Source: Gemmatimonadaceae bacterium (GTDB taxonomy: Bacteria > Gemmatimonadota > Gemmatimonadetes > Gemmatimonadales > Gemmatimonadaceae). From it: a DNA stretch of 64,000 nucleotides. The notes below the pieces were generated by a model. That model worked only from the letters and a program-made list of their open reading frames with translations, was not told the origin of the DNA and did no database searches. Shown here piece after piece: positions 42,617-55,656 of this stretch. The stretch lies in NCBI GenBank assembly GCA_025934775.1, contig JAICWO010000022.1, positions 1 through 64,000 of the forward strand. Reading direction: 5' to 3'. A program made the position numbers and the translations under genes. Position 1 is the stretch's first letter. Each line of letters begins with the position of its first letter.

Positions 42617-45838
<3,222 letters not shown>

Positions 45839-45916
45839 CGTCGGCGCGAGTCCACAGAGGAGAGTCGCGCAAAGCTACGACCGAGTGCGTCACGAGGCCA
45901 GCTATGGCCGCGCGGA

Positions 45917-46927
45917 TCAGTGGGCGGATGCCACCGTCGTCATTGCCGCGTGCGATCGTTGCGCCAGGCCAAGCGCGTACTGCGGCCACCAAGTGCCGGC
46001 GCTCGGGCCGCCATTGCACGTGCCGTCCGATTCGCCAGGCTGTTTGATCCAGAGCAGTGCGTCGACGAGCGTGTTGCCGGTATGCGTTGTCGGCGCGGCG
46101 CCGAGCGCCTGACCGGCGGGGTTGCACCACTGTCCGTTTGCCGAGGCGGCGCCGTTGCGGCTCGTGTCGATCACGAAGTGCTTTCCACCCAACAGGCGCG
46201 AGAGTGACACGCCGAACGTCGTGTTGTCGCTCGTCGAGAAATAGTTTGACACGTTGAGCGAGAATCCGTCCGCCTGATCGATGCCCGCTTGGCGCAGGCG
46301 CGACGCCATCTCGCTCGCGCTCACCCAGTGCGCGTTGCCCGCGTCGAGGTAGACGTGCGCGCCGGCGTGCGCGAGCGTTGCCACCGCGCCGCGGAGCATG
46401 CTGAAGCGCTCGCTCTGCGCGCTCGGCGAGAGACAACTGCTCCCCGCGATCGCATCGGGCTCGAGGATGACCACGGCCGGTCGACCGCGCAGACCGTCGG
46501 CCATGCCCTGAATCCAGCGCGCGTAGCTCTGCGCGTCCTTTGCTCCACCCGCGGAGTAGCTCCCGCAATCGCGATTTGGAATGTCGTACGCGACGAGCAC
46601 GGGAATCGTGCCGGTGCGCGCGGCGTCGCTCGTCAATCGGTCGACATCGCCGCGAATGTCCGTGTTCCAGTCGCCGAACCACGTGGCCGTGGGCTGCGCG
46701 GCGATGTAGTCCATGAACGCCGCGTCGGCGGGACGGCTCTTGCGCCACTGATCGGCCTGACGTGCCGCGGGCGACGAGGGGTTCACGTACAGGCGCATCG
46801 ACAGCGGCGAAGGCGTCGCGGCGTGCGCTGCGCCGGCGAAGAGCATGGTAGAGGCGACCGCGATCGCGGCCACAACGGCATGAGCGTTCGCACTGAGTGT
46901 GCGAGCGCAAAGAGCATATGCTTTCAA
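45917..46927 (-). CDS. GH6-family cellulase (endoglucanase), secreted
   Basis: A 336-residue enzyme that cuts beta-1,4-glucan by inversion. The signal peptide ends AGAAHAA. GH6 hallmarks are WFGDWNTDI, YDIPNRDCG (acid Asp about 120), VILEPDAI (Asp about 158), and WIKQPGESDG near residue 290. The start is TTG 46927, with GGAGG four bases upstream; the in-phase alternatives are worse. A GEMM-class riboswitch covers the leader and its ribosome-binding site, so its output should depend on a cyclic dinucleotide. A second GH6 gene is at 54397. Confidence 0.9.
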   Translation of the reverse strand: MKAYALCARTLSANAHAVVAAIAVASTMLFAGAAHAATPSPLSMRLYVNPSSPAARQADQWRKSRPADAAFMDYIAAQPTATWFGDWNTDIRGDVDRLTSDAARTGTIPVLVAYDIPNRDCGSYSAGGAKDAQSYARWIQGMADGLRGRPAVVILEPDAIAGSSCLSPSAQSERFSMLRGAVATLAHAGAHVYLDAGNAHWVSASEMASRLRQAGIDQADGFSLNVSNYFSTSDNTTFGVSLSRLLGGKHFVIDTSRNGAASANGQWCNPAGQALGAAPTTHTGNTLVDALLWIKQPGESDGTCNGGPSAGTWWPQYALGLAQRSHAAMTTVASAH

Positions 46928-47038
46928 AATTCCTCCGGCAGTCCGGCTGGCGTAGCCATCTCGGCTGTAACCGAGATAGCGTTAGCCCCGCGACTTTGCG
47001 TGGCGGCCTTTCAGCCGCGTTGCCCTTGGTCGGGAATT
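46928..47038 (-). promoter_or_regulatory. GEMM-type (cyclic di-GMP-I class) riboswitch leader of the GH6 gene
   Basis: On the minus strand the leader reads AAGGGCAACGCGGCUGAAAG, then GCCGCCACGCAAAGUCGCGG and GGCUAACGCU. The GGGCAA, a GAAA tetraloop closing a 5-bp stem, the invariant ACGCAAAG, the CUAA tetraloop-receptor and a second stem (AUCUCGG/CCGAGAU) then GCCAGCCGG agree with the GEMM-I aptamer. The 3' end contains GGAGGAAUU, and its GGAAUU can pair with AAUUCC at the 5' end (47033-47038), masking the ribosome-binding site. c-di-GMP and cGAMP cannot be told apart here. Confidence 0.82.
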
Positions 47039-47070
47039 GACGTGCGCTTTGCTTGCCTGGTACGCTATGA

Positions 47071-47099
47071 AATATAGCCGACGCGCAGTGGCGCGTCAA
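47071..47099 (-). promoter_or_regulatory. sigma70-type promoter of the riboswitch-GH6 gene
   Basis: Read on the minus strand, TTGACG (47094-47099) is followed after exactly 17 bases by TATATT (47071-47076). Transcription should start near 47064, giving a leader of about 137 bases that contains the riboswitch. It is one of the cleanest promoters in the window. Confidence 0.75.
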
Positions 47100-47100
47100 T

Positions 47101-47127
47101 ATAACTCTTTGATATTAAAAGAGTTAT
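47101..47127. terminator. AT-rich perfect hairpin upstream of the GH6 promoter
   Basis: ATAACTCTTT (47101-47110) and AAAGAGTTAT (47118-47127) form a 10-bp stem around a seven-base loop, right against the -35 box. It sits 26 bases past the DUF3131 stop. It may end DUF3131 transcription, or be the operator of a regulator acting on the GH6 promoter. The A/T content is striking in this DNA. Confidence 0.6.
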
Positions 47128-47152: not shown

Positions 47153-48448
47153 CTACGGTGCGACGGTCGCGCTGTCGATCAACGGCCGGCCGCCGCGCAG
47201 CTCGTAGAAGGCGACCTCGAGCAGCACCGACGCGCTGTTCACGTCGAACGTCTTCGTCGACGCGCGCGTGTCTTCCATTACACCAGTCGCCCAGCCGCGG
47301 TTCGGATCATGAGCGTTGGCGACGTACTGGACCGCGGCGCGCGTGTAGTCGTTGGGAAGAATCGCGTTCCAGCCGAACGCGGCTTTGGTGCTCACCCAAC
47401 GCGGCCGTGACACCTGAGCGCCGGACGACGCGTTCTCCACCACGAAGGCTTTGCCGGAGCAGTAGACGCAGTAGTAATAGAAATAATCCGGCGGTACGGC
47501 GACGGCGTCTTCCGAGACCATCGTCATCTTCCCGTCGGACTTGTAGCGCGCTTCCTCGAGCGCGAGCACGTTCTTCGCGAGCGATTCGACGTCGGCGGGC
47601 ATGCCGAGCTCGATGCCGTAGAGAATGAACGGCTCGCTCAGCAATCGATCCTGCTGCCGCTTGTCAGCGAGGATCGGGACGCCCATCACGGTGACGGGCT
47701 CCGCGTTCTTGTGTACGTCGAGCGCGTTTCGAACATCGGCGCCCCAGCGCGCGAAGCCTTGGGCCGCGTACTGCTCGTAGCCAATGCGGCCTTCCTGATA
47801 CGTCCACGGCTTGCCGTTCGAGCCGAGGAGCTGGCCTTGGAGATAACCGTCCTTCACAATTTGTGAATAGTCCATTCGCTTCGCGATACGCGCCAGCTGA
47901 TCCGCGTACTGCGGCTCGCGCGCGGCGAGGATCTTGAGGGCGACGAGAAAGCGCCCGAGGTCGGTGGCCGACCATCCTGGCCGTCCCTCGCTGCTGATCG
48001 CGCCGGTACGCGTGGAATACAGCTTCGCGAACGCCGTGTTCTGATACAGCGGCATGCGCTCGAGCGTCGCCAGCGTCTTGCGCGTGCGAGCGTCGTAGTC
48101 GCCGGCGGTGATCAAGCCGAGCTCTTTCGCCGCGTGAAAGCCGAGCAGCTCGGCGCCGATGTCCCACATGGTGGTGTTGTACCAATCGGGCGTCGCGCTC
48201 ACGAGGCCGGTGTTCGGCTGCCAGTTGGCGGTGAGATAGCCGAGCGACTGCTTGGCCATTTCACGATAGAGGGCCTTCTCCTCTGGGGAGAGCGGCGGTC
48301 GCGCAGGCGTCGAAGCGATCGCGGCCGCGGACGCGACCGAGGTCGTATTCGGAGCCGCGCGTGCGTACGCCGGCGCCGCGTCGTGAGACGACCCGCACGC
48401 CGTCAGCACGGCGAACACCAACCCGAGAATGCAGCCGCCCATGTTCAT
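47153..48448 (-). CDS. DUF3131-family lipoprotein
   Basis: A 431-residue protein with lipobox VLTACG (Cys at about 18) and a DUF3131 domain (about 60-420), an (alpha/alpha)6-barrel-like fold related to glycan-active glucoamylase-like enzymes. Typical segments are TGLVSATPDWYNTTMWDIG, LGRFLVALKILAAREP, DGYLQGQ and TKAAFGWNAILPNDYT. It is divergent from the cellulose-synthase-like gene and upstream of GH6, so a role in making or trimming the same polysaccharide is likely. Confidence 0.8.
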   Translation of the reverse strand: MNMGGCILGLVFAVLTACGSSHDAAPAYARAAPNTTSVASAAAIASTPARPPLSPEEKALYREMAKQSLGYLTANWQPNTGLVSATPDWYNTTMWDIGAELLGFHAAKELGLITAGDYDARTRKTLATLERMPLYQNTAFAKLYSTRTGAISSEGRPGWSATDLGRFLVALKILAAREPQYADQLARIAKRMDYSQIVKDGYLQGQLLGSNGKPWTYQEGRIGYEQYAAQGFARWGADVRNALDVHKNAEPVTVMGVPILADKRQQDRLLSEPFILYGIELGMPADVESLAKNVLALEEARYKSDGKMTMVSEDAVAVPPDYFYYYCVYCSGKAFVVENASSGAQVSRPRWVSTKAAFGWNAILPNDYTRAAVQYVANAHDPNRGWATGVMEDTRASTKTFDVNSASVLLEVAFYELRGGRPLIDSATVAP

Positions 48449-48627: not shown

Positions 48628-50982
48628 ATGCAGCTGGAAGGACAGGGAGCGGCGGGCGCCCCCGCGAGCTCGACCGACATCACCGCAGTTGAGACCTCCG
48701 CCGCACACGCCGCGGCGGATCGGCGCGAGAGACCAGTCCGGTGGGTTCAGGCATTCGCCATCCTCGCGCTCGCTTATGCGACGTACTGGATCGGCTGGCG
48801 CTGGACACACACCATCAACACCGATCCGAAAGCTTTCGTCCCATCCATGATTCTGCTGCTCGCGGAGACGTGGGCCTACATCAACATGTGCTTGTTCGTG
48901 ATGTTGACGTGGCGCCTCACCGACCGCGAGCCTGGCCCCGCCCCAGATGGCCGCACCGTCGACGTCTTCATCACCGTGTACGACGAGCCGCTCGAGATCG
49001 TGCGGCGCACGGCAGTCGGCGCGCGAGAGATCCGCTACCCGCACCGCACGTACATCCTCGACGACGGCAAGCGCGACGAGCTGCTCGCGATGACGCGCGA
49101 GCTCGGCATCGGGTACATCCGCCGGGTGGGCAACGCCCACGCGAAATCAGGAAACTTGAATTACGCGATCAGCGTGACCCGCGGCGAGTTCATCCTTCAG
49201 CTCGACGCCGACCACGTGCCGATGCCAAGCATCCTCGATCGGCTGCTCGGCTACTTCAACGATCCGCGGATGGCCCTGGTTCAGTCGCCGCAGGACTTCT
49301 ACAACGTCGACTCGTTCACGCACGTGCGGAACGACGAAGGCCGGCGGCTGTGGGAGGAGAATCGGATCTTCTACTCGTTGATCCAGCCAGGCCGCGACCA
49401 CTGGAACGCGTCGTTCTTCTGCGGGAGCTGCGGCGTCATCCGCCGCTCGGCGCTCGAGGAGATCGGCGGCTTCGCGTCGCAGACGATCATCGAGGACATG
49501 GAGACGACGATGCAGCTCCATGCCCACGGCTACAAGTCTGCGTATCATCGGGAGACGCTCGCGTACGGTCTCGCGCCGGGCGCGGCGGGCGCGTACCACG
49601 TGCAGCGGCTGCGCTGGGGGCAGGGCGCGATGCAGATCCTGCGGAAGCTGAAGCCGCTCACGATGCGCGGGCTCACGCTTCAGCAGCGACTCGCGTACTT
49701 CGCGGGCACGGCGTGCTATTTCGAAGGCTGGCAGAAGTGCGTGTTCTATCTGATGCCGCTCTTCTATTTCTTCACCGGCATTCTGCCGGTGGGCGGCGAT
49801 CAGCACGCGTTTCTGATCCGGCTCATTCCGTACATCCTGATCTCGATCGCCGCGTTCGAGCTGCTGTCGCGCGGGACCGGGTATCTGTTCCTGAGCGAGC
49901 GGTTCACGATGGTGCGCGTGTGGACGTACATGATGGCCGCTCTCGCCGTCTTCACGCGCAAGCCGCTCAAGTTCAACGTCACGCCCAAGGGCCATGCGGC
50001 GGTCCCGCGCATGGCGTACATGCCGCAGCTCACGCTGCTCCTGCTGTCGGTGGCCGCGCCGGTCTGGGCGACGGTGGCCTATCGCGCGCACTGGATTGAC
50101 TATACCGCGCACGGCTGGGGCTCGTGGGCGTTCTGGATGAACGGCGTGTGGGCGCTCTGGAACTGCTGCTTCGCGTACTACGTGGTGCGCCACAGTCTCA
50201 CCATGCGGCAGCGGCGCGACGATCATCGCTTCGAAGAGCAGATGGTGATCGACGTGCAGATCGCGGGCGAAGGCGAGACCATTCTCGTTCCCGCGATGAC
50301 GTTCGATCTCAACTCGGCCGGTCTGGGCTTCCGCGCCACGCAGCCGGTTCCGGTGGGGACGAAGGTCAGCATCGCGCTGCCGCTCGGCGAGAAGACCATT
50401 CCGACAACGGGCGAGGTGCGGCATGTCGCACCCGTGCGCTCGCATCTCGGCGCCGTGTACTCGCACGGCGTCGACTTCACCGCGCTGCCGATCGAGGCGC
50501 GGGACACGATCGAGCTGTTCTGCACCAATCACTCGATGGCCGTGTGGCGCATGCGCTACCGCCAGTCGATCGACATCGTGCAGCTCGCCGGCGAGCGCAT
50601 TCGCAACCTGCGCGCGGGGCGCCGTCGTCTCGTCGGCCTTCCGGCGATGGTGCGCGCGCACGCCGCCGAACCCGACGGTGGCGCGGCGCTGACGCACTCC
50701 CTCGTCCTCGAGGAGCTCGGCGAGCGAGGCGCGCGCCTCATTGGCAACATGGCGTTCGCGCCGGGGACGCAGGTCACGTTCGAGGTGCCGGGCTCCACGA
50801 TCCACGGCACCGGCGTCGTGCGCCACGTGCAGACGCATCGCACGTCGATGGCGGTGCTGTTCAGCCTCGGCGTCGAGTTCAGCGACGGGACGCGCCGGCC
50901 GTCGCGATGGCTGCCGGCGTCCATCACGTCGCTCCTCCCCGGCGGCGGCGAATCCCACGAACCGACGGCGCGGGCATCATGA
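48628..50982 (+). CDS. cellulose-synthase-like GT2 with two C-terminal PilZ domains
   Basis: A 784-residue membrane glycosyltransferase. The processive GT2 motifs are DDG (145-147), DADH (193-196), FCGS (264-267), IIEDMET (287-293) and QRLRW (326-330), with helices before and after as in BcsA. A first PilZ domain (about 525-635) has the c-di-GMP motif RDDHR (530-534) and DLNSAGLG (560-567). A second PilZ-like domain (about 663-770) lacks the full RxxxR motif. It should make a beta-linked glucan under c-di-GMP control. The BcsB, BcsC and GH8 partners are absent nearby. Confidence 0.87.
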   Translation: MQLEGQGAAGAPASSTDITAVETSAAHAAADRRERPVRWVQAFAILALAYATYWIGWRWTHTINTDPKAFVPSMILLLAETWAYINMCLFVMLTWRLTDREPGPAPDGRTVDVFITVYDEPLEIVRRTAVGAREIRYPHRTYILDDGKRDELLAMTRELGIGYIRRVGNAHAKSGNLNYAISVTRGEFILQLDADHVPMPSILDRLLGYFNDPRMALVQSPQDFYNVDSFTHVRNDEGRRLWEENRIFYSLIQPGRDHWNASFFCGSCGVIRRSALEEIGGFASQTIIEDMETTMQLHAHGYKSAYHRETLAYGLAPGAAGAYHVQRLRWGQGAMQILRKLKPLTMRGLTLQQRLAYFAGTACYFEGWQKCVFYLMPLFYFFTGILPVGGDQHAFLIRLIPYILISIAAFELLSRGTGYLFLSERFTMVRVWTYMMAALAVFTRKPLKFNVTPKGHAAVPRMAYMPQLTLLLLSVAAPVWATVAYRAHWIDYTAHGWGSWAFWMNGVWALWNCCFAYYVVRHSLTMRQRRDDHRFEEQMVIDVQIAGEGETILVPAMTFDLNSAGLGFRATQPVPVGTKVSIALPLGEKTIPTTGEVRHVAPVRSHLGAVYSHGVDFTALPIEARDTIELFCTNHSMAVWRMRYRQSIDIVQLAGERIRNLRAGRRRLVGLPAMVRAHAAEPDGGAALTHSLVLEELGERGARLIGNMAFAPGTQVTFEVPGSTIHGTGVVRHVQTHRTSMAVLFSLGVEFSDGTRRPSRWLPASITSLLPGGGESHEPTARAS

Positions 50983-52637
50983 GCATTCCTGAATTAGAGC
51001 CGCTCGATCAGGCCGCGGAGCCGATCGTCATTCACGTGCCGCCATTCGACGACGCGGCGCCGGCCGCCGGCGTGGCGATCGTTCCGGATACGCCGAGCAC
51101 GCCGAAGCGCGGGCCGAAGCGCAAACGCAAACGCGGACCGACGCCGAGCGCGCCGCCCGCATCGCTGCCCGCGCTCGCCACCGTGCCGCTCGCGCTTCCG
51201 AAGACGTCGACGGCCGATGCGCCGGCGCCGACCGTCGACGTGGAGCCCAAGCGGGCATCCAGCCTCGATGCGCTGCGCGGGCTCTTCCTCGTGAGCATGA
51301 CGTTCGGCTTCACGATCGCGAGCGACCACCTCCCGCTCTGGATGTATCACCGGCAGTTCCCGCCCTCGGCGGGCGACGTGCCGGCGAACGTGGCGGGCAT
51401 CAGTTGGCGCGACCTCACGTACGTCTCGTTCCTGTTCACGATGGCGACCGCGCTGCCGCTCACGCTCTCGCGGCGCATCGATCGCGGCGAGCCCGAGCTG
51501 GGCATCGTCTTCGCGGCGGTCAAACGCTACTGGATGCTGTTCGTGTACGGGCTCCTGCTGGCGCACGCCAATACCTACTTCATCGGCTATACACAGACAG
51601 GACGCGTGTTGTCGCTCGTCGGCTTCGGCATCATGGCGCTCGTGTTCACGCGTCGCCGCAAGGATTGGGACGCGGAGCGTTTTGCCGTCGCCCGGAGAGT
51701 GGGGTGGGGCGCGCTCGTGCTGTTCCTGGCGCTCTCGCCGCTCGCGTACGGCAAGACGTTCACGATCGGGCGCATGGACGACGTGATCGCCGATCTGGCG
51801 TTCGCGTCGTGCGTCGGATCGCTGCTGTGGTACTTCACGCGCGAACGCACGGAGCTGCGGCTGGCGGCGCTCGCGGGTGTGGTCGCGCTCTACTTTGGCG
51901 CGCACGGCGACGGCTGGATTCAGAGCTGGTGGTACGCATCGCCGTTCCCGTCGGTGTTCACACCGAGCCAGCTCGATCTGCTCGTCGTGGTGATTCCGGG
52001 GACGATCGCGGGCGATCTCGTGCGGCGATGGATGAATGCGCCCGAAGAGCCCGGATCTGCCGCGGCGGCGTGGACGCCGGCGCGGCTGCGCGCGATCGCC
52101 GTGCTCTCGGCGATCATCACACCGATCTTCACCGTGGGCATGTACACGCGCGCGGTGCAGGGAACGACGGAGGTCGTGCTCGCGCTGCTGGCGGTCGGCA
52201 TCGGGCTGACGTGGAAGCCGCGGACCTCGCTCGATCGCCTCGTGCGCTCGGTATTCCTGTGGGGCGCGCTCTGGCTCACGATCGGCCTCTTCCTCGAGCC
52301 GGCCGAAGGCGGCATCCGCAAGGTGCCGGAAACGCTCTCGTACTTCTTCAGCGTCACGGGCACGACGTCGCTGCTGCTCGTCACCATGACCGTCGTCATC
52401 GAAGGGTTGCGCAAGCGCCGCTGGGTGCACGCGCTCATCGACGTCGGGCAGAACCCGTTGCTCGGGTACGTGGTCTTCACGCTGCTGCTCAATCCGCTGC
52501 TCGAGCTCGTGCCGCCATTTCGCGGAGTGCTGCAATCATCGCCCGGGCTGTCGATCGTGCGCAGCCTGATCGAGGCCGGCCTCGTGGTGTTGGCTGTTCG
52601 GTACGTCACGCACAAACGCGTCTTCTGGCGCACGTGA
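50979..52637 (+). CDS. DUF5009/HGSNAT-like multi-pass membrane acyltransferase
   Basis: A 552-residue protein. The first 85 residues are polar and Lys/Arg/Pro-rich (RGPKRKRKRGP) and probably cytoplasmic. Then comes a membrane domain of about eleven helices opened by RASSLDALRGLFLVSMTFGF, the signature of DUF5009 and heparan-alpha-glucosaminide acetyltransferase relatives, with a conserved His in SDHLPLWMYH. Relatives pass acetyl groups across the membrane to a sugar. Its ATG overlaps the stop of the synthase (ATGA), so it probably modifies that polysaccharide. Confidence 0.78.
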   Translation: MSIPELEPLDQAAEPIVIHVPPFDDAAPAAGVAIVPDTPSTPKRGPKRKRKRGPTPSAPPASLPALATVPLALPKTSTADAPAPTVDVEPKRASSLDALRGLFLVSMTFGFTIASDHLPLWMYHRQFPPSAGDVPANVAGISWRDLTYVSFLFTMATALPLTLSRRIDRGEPELGIVFAAVKRYWMLFVYGLLLAHANTYFIGYTQTGRVLSLVGFGIMALVFTRRRKDWDAERFAVARRVGWGALVLFLALSPLAYGKTFTIGRMDDVIADLAFASCVGSLLWYFTRERTELRLAALAGVVALYFGAHGDGWIQSWWYASPFPSVFTPSQLDLLVVVIPGTIAGDLVRRWMNAPEEPGSAAAAWTPARLRAIAVLSAIITPIFTVGMYTRAVQGTTEVVLALLAVGIGLTWKPRTSLDRLVRSVFLWGALWLTIGLFLEPAEGGIRKVPETLSYFFSVTGTTSLLLVTMTVVIEGLRKRRWVHALIDVGQNPLLGYVVFTLLLNPLLELVPPFRGVLQSSPGLSIVRSLIEAGLVVLAVRYVTHKRVFWRT

Positions 52638-52686
52638 CGTGTGGGTTCATCTGCACGTTCGCAACACGATTGCAAGGAGCAGAACG

Positions 52687-53400
52687 ATGAACGGTACGAC
52701 CCATCGATGGAGCATTTTCGCACTCGGCCTGCTGCTGTCCGTCGGTGTCGCGCGACCCGCCCTGGCCCAGTGGACCTCCACGGCGTACGGCGTGGCGCAG
52801 TACGACACGAAGCAGACAGGCCTGTTGCTCGCCGGCGTGACGGCGAGCCCCAAGACGATGGGCATCGTCCCGGTGCTCGGCCTCCAGGCGTACTGGCTCG
52901 GCTTCGACAACGGTCCCGGACGCACCAACGCGTACACGATTCGACCGGGCGTCGGCCTTGGCTACAACTACGCCGGCGGCCAGGTGGTGGGCACCGTCGG
53001 ATACGCGTTCTCTAATGAGAGAAACAACATCGGCGGCCCGGTGGTCGCGACCACCCGCGGCCGCGGCGTTGACGTGGACGGCGAGTGGGACCACTGGGGC
53101 ACCGGCGCGGGGCTCGGGTATCAGGCGCTGGCGAGCTACAACTTCGGGAGCCAGTCGTTCTGGGGGCGCGGCCGCGTCACGACGCGCATCTCGCAGAGCG
53201 GCGCATCATCCACGCGCCTCGGCGGCGAAGTCGCATACCTGTCGGGCCCCGGCTACAACGCGTGGCAGCCCGGCGGCGTGATCGAGTTCCACATGCCCGG
53301 CGGCCAGATCCTCGGCCTCGGTGCGGGCGTCACCCTGCCGAATGCCGGCGGGAATGCCGTGTACTTCAAAGTGGAAGGCGTACTTCCCCTCGTTCGTTGA
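52687..53400 (+). CDS. secreted outer-membrane beta-barrel-like protein
   Basis: A 237-residue protein with a signal peptide ending PALAQ and Gly/Tyr-rich alternating strands (LGYNYAGGQVVGTVGYAF, ASYNFGSQSFWGRGR, LGLGAGVTL). It ends in a hydrophobic strand, VLPLVR. AAGGAG seven bases before ATG 52687 fixes the start. Lying between the acyltransferase and the deacetylase, it may be an outer-membrane channel or binding protein for the polysaccharide (positional inference). Confidence 0.68.
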   Translation: MNGTTHRWSIFALGLLLSVGVARPALAQWTSTAYGVAQYDTKQTGLLLAGVTASPKTMGIVPVLGLQAYWLGFDNGPGRTNAYTIRPGVGLGYNYAGGQVVGTVGYAFSNERNNIGGPVVATTRGRGVDVDGEWDHWGTGAGLGYQALASYNFGSQSFWGRGRVTTRISQSGASSTRLGGEVAYLSGPGYNAWQPGGVIEFHMPGGQILGLGAGVTLPNAGGNAVYFKVEGVLPLVR

Positions 53401-54396: not shown

Positions 54397-55452
54397 TCAG
54401 TACGCCGCGCGCTGCGCGAGGCCGAGTGCGTAGTCGGGCCACCAGACACCCGCGTCCGGACCGCCGTTGCACGCGCCGTCCGACTCGCCAGGCGGTTTGA
54501 TCCAGAGAAACGCATCGAGGCCGTCCACGCCGGTGTGCGTCGTCGGACGCGTGCCGAGCGCGCGGCCGGCCGGATTGCACCACTGCGCGTCGGCCGTCGC
54601 TCCGACGCCGTTGCGCCCGGAGTCGATGATGAAATGCTTATTGCCGACGAGCGCGCTCACCGCCTGGCCGTACCCGATGTTGTCGGCGTCGGCGATGAAG
54701 TTGGAGACGTTGAGCGAGAAGCCGGCGGCGTCGGCGATGTCGGCCGCGGCAAGACGCGCCGCCATCGTCGCCGGCGATTGCCATCCCGGATGACCCGCAT
54801 CAAGATAGACCGCGACATTTCCAACGGCGTGGAAGGCACGCACGGCGTACGCGATGAGCGCGAGCCGCGTCTGCTGGCCGGACGCCGAGAGGCAGTCCAT
54901 TCCGGCGAGCGCGTCAGGCTCGAGCACGACGGCCGCCGGCCGGCCGCCGAGTCCGGCGGCGAAGCCATCGATCCATCGCTGGTAACCGGCGGCGTCGACC
55001 GCGTTGCCGCCGGAGAGCCCGCCGCAGTCCCGCTGCGGAATGTTGTAGGCGACGAACACCGGCGTGGCGCCAGCGGCCGTGATCGTTCGCGACGCGGCTG
55101 CGACGTCGGAAGCAATGTCAGTATTCCAATCGCCGAACCAGATGGCCTGCGGCTGCGCGGCGATCTTGTCGAGCTGCGCGGCGTCCGCCGGCCGTGTGGC
55201 GCGCCACGAATTCGCCGTCGCGCGCGCGGTCGACGACGGGTCGATCCACAGTGTCGCCCCGGCGAGCACGCTCGGCGGCGATACGCTTGGCGTACCCAGA
55301 GGGGCAGCAGGTGTCGTGTCGCCGGTTGAAACGGGCGCGGTGTTTCTCACGGGTGCGGTCGTAGCATCGGAGCACGCAGAAGCAGCGAGCGCCAAGACGA
55401 GCAAGAAGCCGGCAAGCGCGCGCAACCGGATCTGCGCGGCGGGGAGCAGCAT
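54397..55452 (-). CDS. GH6-family cellulase, lipoprotein form
   Basis: A 351-residue GH6 enzyme, clearly paralogous to the one at 45917 (shared WFGDWNTDI, IPQRDCG, VVLEPDAL and IKPPGESDG, with YLDAGHPGW and WWPDYALGLAQR). A lipobox (LAASAC, Cys at about 22) and a Thr/Pro-rich linker replace the plain signal peptide, so this copy is membrane-anchored. No riboswitch was found upstream. ATG 55452 lacks a good ribosome-binding site. It is divergent from the multicopper oxidase. Confidence 0.89.
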   Translation of the reverse strand: MLLPAAQIRLRALAGFLLVLALAASACSDATTAPVRNTAPVSTGDTTPAAPLGTPSVSPPSVLAGATLWIDPSSTARATANSWRATRPADAAQLDKIAAQPQAIWFGDWNTDIASDVAAASRTITAAGATPVFVAYNIPQRDCGGLSGGNAVDAAGYQRWIDGFAAGLGGRPAAVVLEPDALAGMDCLSASGQQTRLALIAYAVRAFHAVGNVAVYLDAGHPGWQSPATMAARLAAADIADAAGFSLNVSNFIADADNIGYGQAVSALVGNKHFIIDSGRNGVGATADAQWCNPAGRALGTRPTTHTGVDGLDAFLWIKPPGESDGACNGGPDAGVWWPDYALGLAQRAAY

Positions 55453-55656
55453 GGGAGGGGAGTCGAAAACGGTGAAGCGGTGCGACCAGGGGAGACGATG
55501 ACATACACCATCGAGAAACGCGGTGTTCGGATGAGCTCGGCCGCTTCCGGCGAGGTGTTGATGACGCATTGTCGAGGCCGCCGAGGCCTGTTGATCACGT
55601 GCGCGCCGGAGATAAGTTCCGCCCGTCGCATACCTGGTGATGCACCGGAGGGTTGC

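Follow-up and report, generated by a model that had tools for sequence, protein, structure and literature searches.

A c-di-GMP-I riboswitch leader with the Shine-Dalgarno sequence inside its predicted P1 helix precedes a GH6 endoglucanase gene in Gemmatimonadaceae

The 64 kb stretch of Gemmatimonadaceae DNA analyzed here (the window) contains a GH6 endoglucanase gene, which is preceded on the minus strand by a promoter-like sequence, a riboswitch aptamer and a Shine-Dalgarno (SD) sequence (Table 1). The 336 aa product starts at a TTG codon and has a signal-peptide-like N-terminus. Its PF01341 match exceeds the curated cut-off, and the nearest solved structures, 1uoz/1up0 and endoglucanase E-2, are Cel6 endoglucanases. 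D120 and D158, presumably catalytic as in Cel6 enzymes, are invariant across alignment A1. Judged by its sequence, the target of the riboswitch is an intact GH6 endoglucanase, as expected from the original prediction that a GH6 cellulase is the controlled gene. The enzyme shares its family and the invariant Asp-bearing motifs with other GH6 endoglucanases (Cel6, E-2 and the putative cellulase Cel6/CelA1), but its gene differs from theirs in lying under a riboswitch and beside a BcsA-PilZ gene.

The upstream neighbor on the same strand encodes a DUF3131 protein, and a GT2 gene with a PilZ domain diverges from GH6; the Pfam match confirms the PilZ synthase that had been proposed at this position. 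Homology of the synthase to BcsA extends across about 560 aa, most of the length of BcsA (structure matches 7lby, E 2.5e-81, and 4p00, E 6.3e-65), but its score falls below the equivalog cut-off of TIGR03030 (405.9 versus 699.1 bits), and we therefore call it BcsA-like only. The module also includes a DUF5009 membrane protein, and a BcsS-like protein is encoded next to it. A second GH6 gene in the window, lipoprotein-like and with a start that is not fixed, falls into a clade with riboswitch-bearing members in other genera, yet it lacks a riboswitch.

Table 1. Features of the GH6 locus in the window, and RF01051 arrays of a sister family
Feature	Position	Strand	Evidence or remark
GH6 endoglucanase	45917-46927	-	PF01341, E 7.6e-65
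Outer P1, 3′ strand GGAAUU	46928-46933	-	sequence, predicted pairing; overlaps SD, reaches start codon
SD, GGAGG	46932-46936	-	sequence
c-di-GMP-I (GEMM-I) aptamer	46934-47034	-	RF01051, 62.6 bits, E 7.2e-10, full model 1-87
C92 equivalent	46938	-	RF01051 alignment
ACGCAAAG	about 46994-47001	-	sequence
A47 equivalent	46997	-	RF01051 alignment
GAAA tetraloop of P2	47009-47012	-	sequence, RF01051 alignment
GGGC	47022-47025	-	sequence
G20 equivalent, ligand-selecting base	47024	-	RF01051 alignment
Outer P1, 5′ strand AAUUCC	47033-47038	-	sequence, predicted pairing
Possible outer helix, 5′ arm	47043-47052	-	pairs with coding bases 46907-46916; inverted repeat I6, 90%; MFE fold
Sigma-70-like promoter TTGACG-17-TATATT	47071-47099	-	10/12 matches
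Perfect 10-bp inverted repeat ATAACTCTTT-7-AAAGAGTTAT	47101-47127		adjoins the -35 of the GH6 promoter on its upstream side
DUF3131 protein	47153-48448	-	PF11329, E 2.5e-94
BcsA-like GT2 with PilZ domain	48628-50982	+	Pfam; BcsA structures
DUF5009 membrane protein	50931-52637	+	PF16401, E 6.2e-35
BcsS-like protein	52639-53400	+	PF17036, E 4.4e-6
Second GH6 gene	54397-55550	-	without riboswitch
RF01051 arrays in family f2	G035:C36:1983-2385; G035:C3:4761-5163; G052:C246:724-995; G052:C176:43639-43909; G050:C17:53449-53698		tandem or triple copies

The Rfam scan of the whole window by cmscan gave the RF01051 aptamer as its sole match, full-length on the minus strand and far above the curated cut-off of 35 bits, and this is also the single copy matched in the 4.88 Mb genome. 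The family model R1, whose training set includes this aptamer, scores it at 70.5 bits. Every GEMM-I part that had been claimed from the letters was found on this strand: P2 with a GNRA tetraloop, P3 with the receptor and the conserved junction are all present in the alignments to RF01051 and to the family. Two-sided, pair-keeping changes occur in 16 of 20 pairs of the family alignment, and at the P3 column pair 42-93 C-G is replaced by U-A on both sides in the window copy only. Like the RF01051 class as a whole, the leader has a full-length match, the conserved junction, the tetraloop with its receptor and G20, A47 and C92; it differs in its GH6 endoglucanase target and in its P3, which an extended hairpin makes longer than that of the model. 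The contact bases and helices are intact. By alignment and covariation, this is a genuine and well-formed c-di-GMP-I riboswitch, a known class and not a new one. The span first assigned to the element (46928-47127) was slightly wide, as it takes in a separate inverted repeat beyond the aptamer.

The presumptive equivalents of G20, A47 and C92 follow Vc2 numbering, which was worked out by hand. As the three contact bases are kept, c-di-GMP is the expected ligand. G20 favors c-di-GMP, and A20 is the mark of cGAMP-type variants. Thus, the broader earlier assignment to a cyclic-dinucleotide sensor holds for the class and narrows to c-di-GMP, given the G at position 20. It is very improbable that cGAMP or some other cyclic dinucleotide takes the place of c-di-GMP as natural ligand: A20 aptamers do exist in the family, and position 20 contributes to selectivity without being a strict filter (PMC9262584), but the window copy has G20 and the genome encodes 13 GGDEF domains. 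The A20 aptamers of Gemmatimonadaceae (L021, L026 and L271) may sense cGAMP, and L265 has a C at this position. In another aptamer (L018:1501-1590), the near-invariant G21-C46 junction pair beside the binding pocket is swapped to C-G on both sides (GCC...ACGG).

The sequence TTGACG-17-TATATT is present upstream of the aptamer as first read, and one site of this type was found where shuffled versions of the region would give 0.2, which makes it a plausible promoter. The inner 9-bp arms of the inverted repeat upstream of it recur exactly nowhere else in the genome; the repeat may be an operator or the terminator of the DUF3131 gene. Open reading frames crossing the leader, e.g. 45741-47099 and 46289-47077, appear to be shadow frames of GH6.

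The pairing of AAUUCC with GGAAUU, which had been proposed to mask GGAGG before the TTG start, does overlap the SD. Together with the further P1 pairs of C47028 and C47029 with G46936 and G46935, it places four of the five SD bases in a helix, and the predicted pairing of the SD inside P1 is 0.79. Only 4 nt separate the SD from the start codon, and this spacing, together with the TTG start, counts against the proposed switch. A random 13-mer of the window offers six Watson-Crick pairs to the P1/SD stretch in 0.5% of cases. Shuffling gave values as low in 13/500 (5′ flank only), 68/500 (both flanks) and 123/500 (short arms) cases, and these are weak tests of pairing strength. The possible outer helix would extend P1 past the start codon; it was not clearly above chance when both flanks were shuffled.

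In folding calculations without ligand, P1 forms at about 0.75-0.8. The cost of opening the SD, ~3-4 kcal/mol, is alike in the free and ligand-like states, and the thermodynamic search for a two-state switch revealed no ON state, P1 being predicted either way. Because P1 is predicted even without ligand, folding shows SD masking but not switching. The leader could instead be a functional c-di-GMP-I riboswitch that acts as an ON switch, in which the bound P1 blocks another inhibitory fold and the cellulase rises, aiding cellulose export like BcsZ. Cellulose synthase operons usually hold an endoglucanase that aids synthesis, and for the free RNA a different fold of the aptamer core is calculated to be 1.8 kcal/mol more stable than the native fold. 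We nevertheless consider an ON switch unlikely: the SD is paired in both folds, the P1 strand that the ligand should stabilize contains the SD, and the stretch from the aptamer to the start codon is too short to hold an anti-SD hairpin of its own. The chance is slim that the leader binds c-di-GMP with P1 always formed, so that translation of GH6 is low at all times and the riboswitch weak or decayed. This would fit the level of P1 without ligand, the TTG start and the score of 62.6 bits, which lies below the 70-82 bits of many relatives, but the contact bases and helices are intact, including the two-sided U-A for C-G at 42-93. Moreover, equilibrium calculations take no account of co-transcriptional folding, which controls several members of the c-di-GMP-I class (PMC9262584).

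We infer that the leader is probably a c-di-GMP-I riboswitch working as a translational OFF switch on the secreted GH6 endoglucanase. Transcription would start a few nucleotides downstream of the TATATT box, the aptamer would fold, and c-di-GMP bound at the junction (G20, A47 and C92) would lock P1. Ribosomes could then not load because the 3′ strand of the locked P1 holds the SD and the bases up to TTG, and falling c-di-GMP would open P1 and allow the cellulase to be made. That the ligand stabilizes P1 in this leader is taken from the class. Since P1 is predicted in the free RNA too, the ligand may slow the opening of P1 or steer co-transcriptional folding, or the leader may be mostly shut. 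The c-di-GMP-I member Vc2 of Vibrio cholerae has been described as a translational OFF switch acting through P1 (PMC9262584). The window leader is similar in that switching probably runs through P1, by which the ribosome-binding site becomes masked. In contrast, its SD is part of P1 itself, whereas the title of the Vc2 study names a site distant from the aptamer (PMC9262584), and its target gene is unrelated.

The distance of the SD from the end of the aptamer was compared among 72 Gemmatimonadaceae leaders with a recognizable SD. The offsets are -3, 0, 0 and +2 in the four GH6 leaders, whereas they are +4 or more in 62 of the 68 non-GH6 leaders (range of these 62, +4 to +44). The six exceptions, all at +1, are L281 and five regulator leaders (L005, L231, L232, L233 and L260). 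The difference between GH6 and other leaders gives a Fisher p of 2e-4, a value that ignores relatedness and belongs to a comparison picked after seeing the data. The predicted pairing of the SD in P1 (short arms) averages 0.73 for GH6, 0.79 for the GGDEF regulators and 0.21 for the other 63 leaders. The P1 counterparts in the other three GH6 leaders (G067, G090 and G154) are built differently, from CCUUCG with CGAAGAGG or CGCAAAGG, and likewise take in the SD; in G154, the automatically chosen SD pairs at only 0.33 and the adjoining AAGG is paired. The four GH6 leaders found all place their SD at the foot of P1, and this comparison lends support to the OFF reading.

Among 70 proteins encoded downstream of the aptamers, 40 have Big_2 Ig-like domains, four are GH6 and one has GH44, and the domain tally counts exactly five with receiver and five with GGDEF domains. 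Because the sequence starts are near-identical and the numbers agree, we infer that both domains fall in the same five genes, those of the regulator leaders. These genes of genus g5 (L005:554-1489 on the minus strand and its four counterparts), apparently encoding receiver-GGDEF proteins, stand behind a riboswitch with the SD inside P1, a candidate for RNA-level negative feedback on a diguanylate cyclase. The leaders of Ig-like surface lipoproteins, the majority of GEMM leaders in the family, share the aptamer family with the window leader, but their SD is rarely in P1 (mean 0.21) and typically lies 9-14 nt past the aptamer (range 4-44). In several of them (L004, L010, L012, L014, L020 and others), the aptamer is immediately preceded by a CGGCAGGATCG-like stretch and a short hairpin, whose C-rich arm could pair with the SD. 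Classification of the lipoprotein leaders as ON switches from their predicted folds gave no clear split, and no direction is therefore claimed for them. In the sister family f2, RF01051 occurs in tandem or triple copies about 156-182 nt apart (Table 1); tandem c-di-GMP-I arrays are already known as a kind (PMC9481103).

RF01051 is common in Gemmatimonadaceae (105/148 genomes), with up to nine copies per genome within the order, and GH6 is rare (8/148 genomes in the family and 12/395 in the phylum). The aptamer lies directly before GH6 in four Gemmatimonadaceae genomes from three genera: that of the window, G067, G090 and G154. G067, which represents another genus, has two GH6 genes in tandem behind the riboswitch and keeps the BcsA-PilZ, DUF5009, DUF3131 and GH6 genes together with it. 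Strong homologues of the window DUF3131 protein occur in only four of 59 genomes (G000, G067, G018 and G015), all of which carry GH6; the GH6 genes of G018 and G015 have no riboswitch, a point against the proposed reading. In the GH6 tree, where the G090 row is a partial protein cut by the contig end, three riboswitch-bearing genes and the riboswitch-free second GH6 gene of the window fall into one Gemmatimonadaceae clade (99/95), with the riboswitch-bearing window gene outside, and the riboswitch label needs at least three changes. As the riboswitch-bearing genes do not form one clade, the tree points to either repeated recruitment or repeated loss of the leader. No riboswitch was found at about 90 GH6 loci from other families of the phylum and other bacteria or at 80 GH6 loci from viral contigs; one 15-bit match at a GH6 locus (L048) was at chance level. 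GH6 relatives are encoded by 151 stretches in IMG/VR viral contigs (L139-L218), many of these contigs being tens of kb long. The close GH6 relatives L061 (Gemmatimonadetes bacterium) and L062 (Gemmatimonadaceae bacterium) are near-identical to GH6 genes of genomes from the family of the window, and this assigns the window genome to Gemmatimonadaceae (phylum Gemmatimonadota).

In the open-licence literature on c-di-GMP riboswitches with cellulases, glycoside hydrolases, chitinases, cellulose or Gemmatimonadetes, we found the riboswitch-cellulase link nowhere described, and no paper in the open literature brought together Gemmatimonas, c-di-GMP and riboswitch. The riboswitch-GH6 pair is a known class in an informative wiring, with a clear recurrent target and an OFF geometry. 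The enzyme may have a role like that of BcsZ (GH8) beside the cellulose synthase in the bcs operon, but belongs to a different GH family. We expect c-di-GMP to activate the BcsA-PilZ synthase; with the synthase switched on and the cellulase switched off by the same molecule, glucan synthesis and cleavage would therefore be opposed at one locus. At high c-di-GMP, the synthase would be on via PilZ and the cellulase off, and at low c-di-GMP the cellulase would be made and could release cells from the matrix that they produced or break down cellulose of foreign origin. As a wider proposal, which we offer tentatively and find somewhat doubtful as a whole, two platforms may be used on one aptamer family according to target: the SD in P1 for repression of GH6 and for negative feedback on GGDEF regulators, and a distal SD, possibly with opposite switching, for adhesin-like lipoproteins, with the GH6 link having arisen more than once and a PilZ-activated synthase and an RNA-repressed hydrolase sharing one locus. 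Gemmatimonadota is a phylum with almost no work on c-di-GMP, and its ~70 leaders with two platform geometries form a convenient set in which to compare the evolution of OFF and other platforms on a single aptamer. If the OFF switch is true, one messenger would oppose a synthase, through a protein domain, and the matching hydrolase, through an RNA, in a compact make-or-break switch for the matrix.
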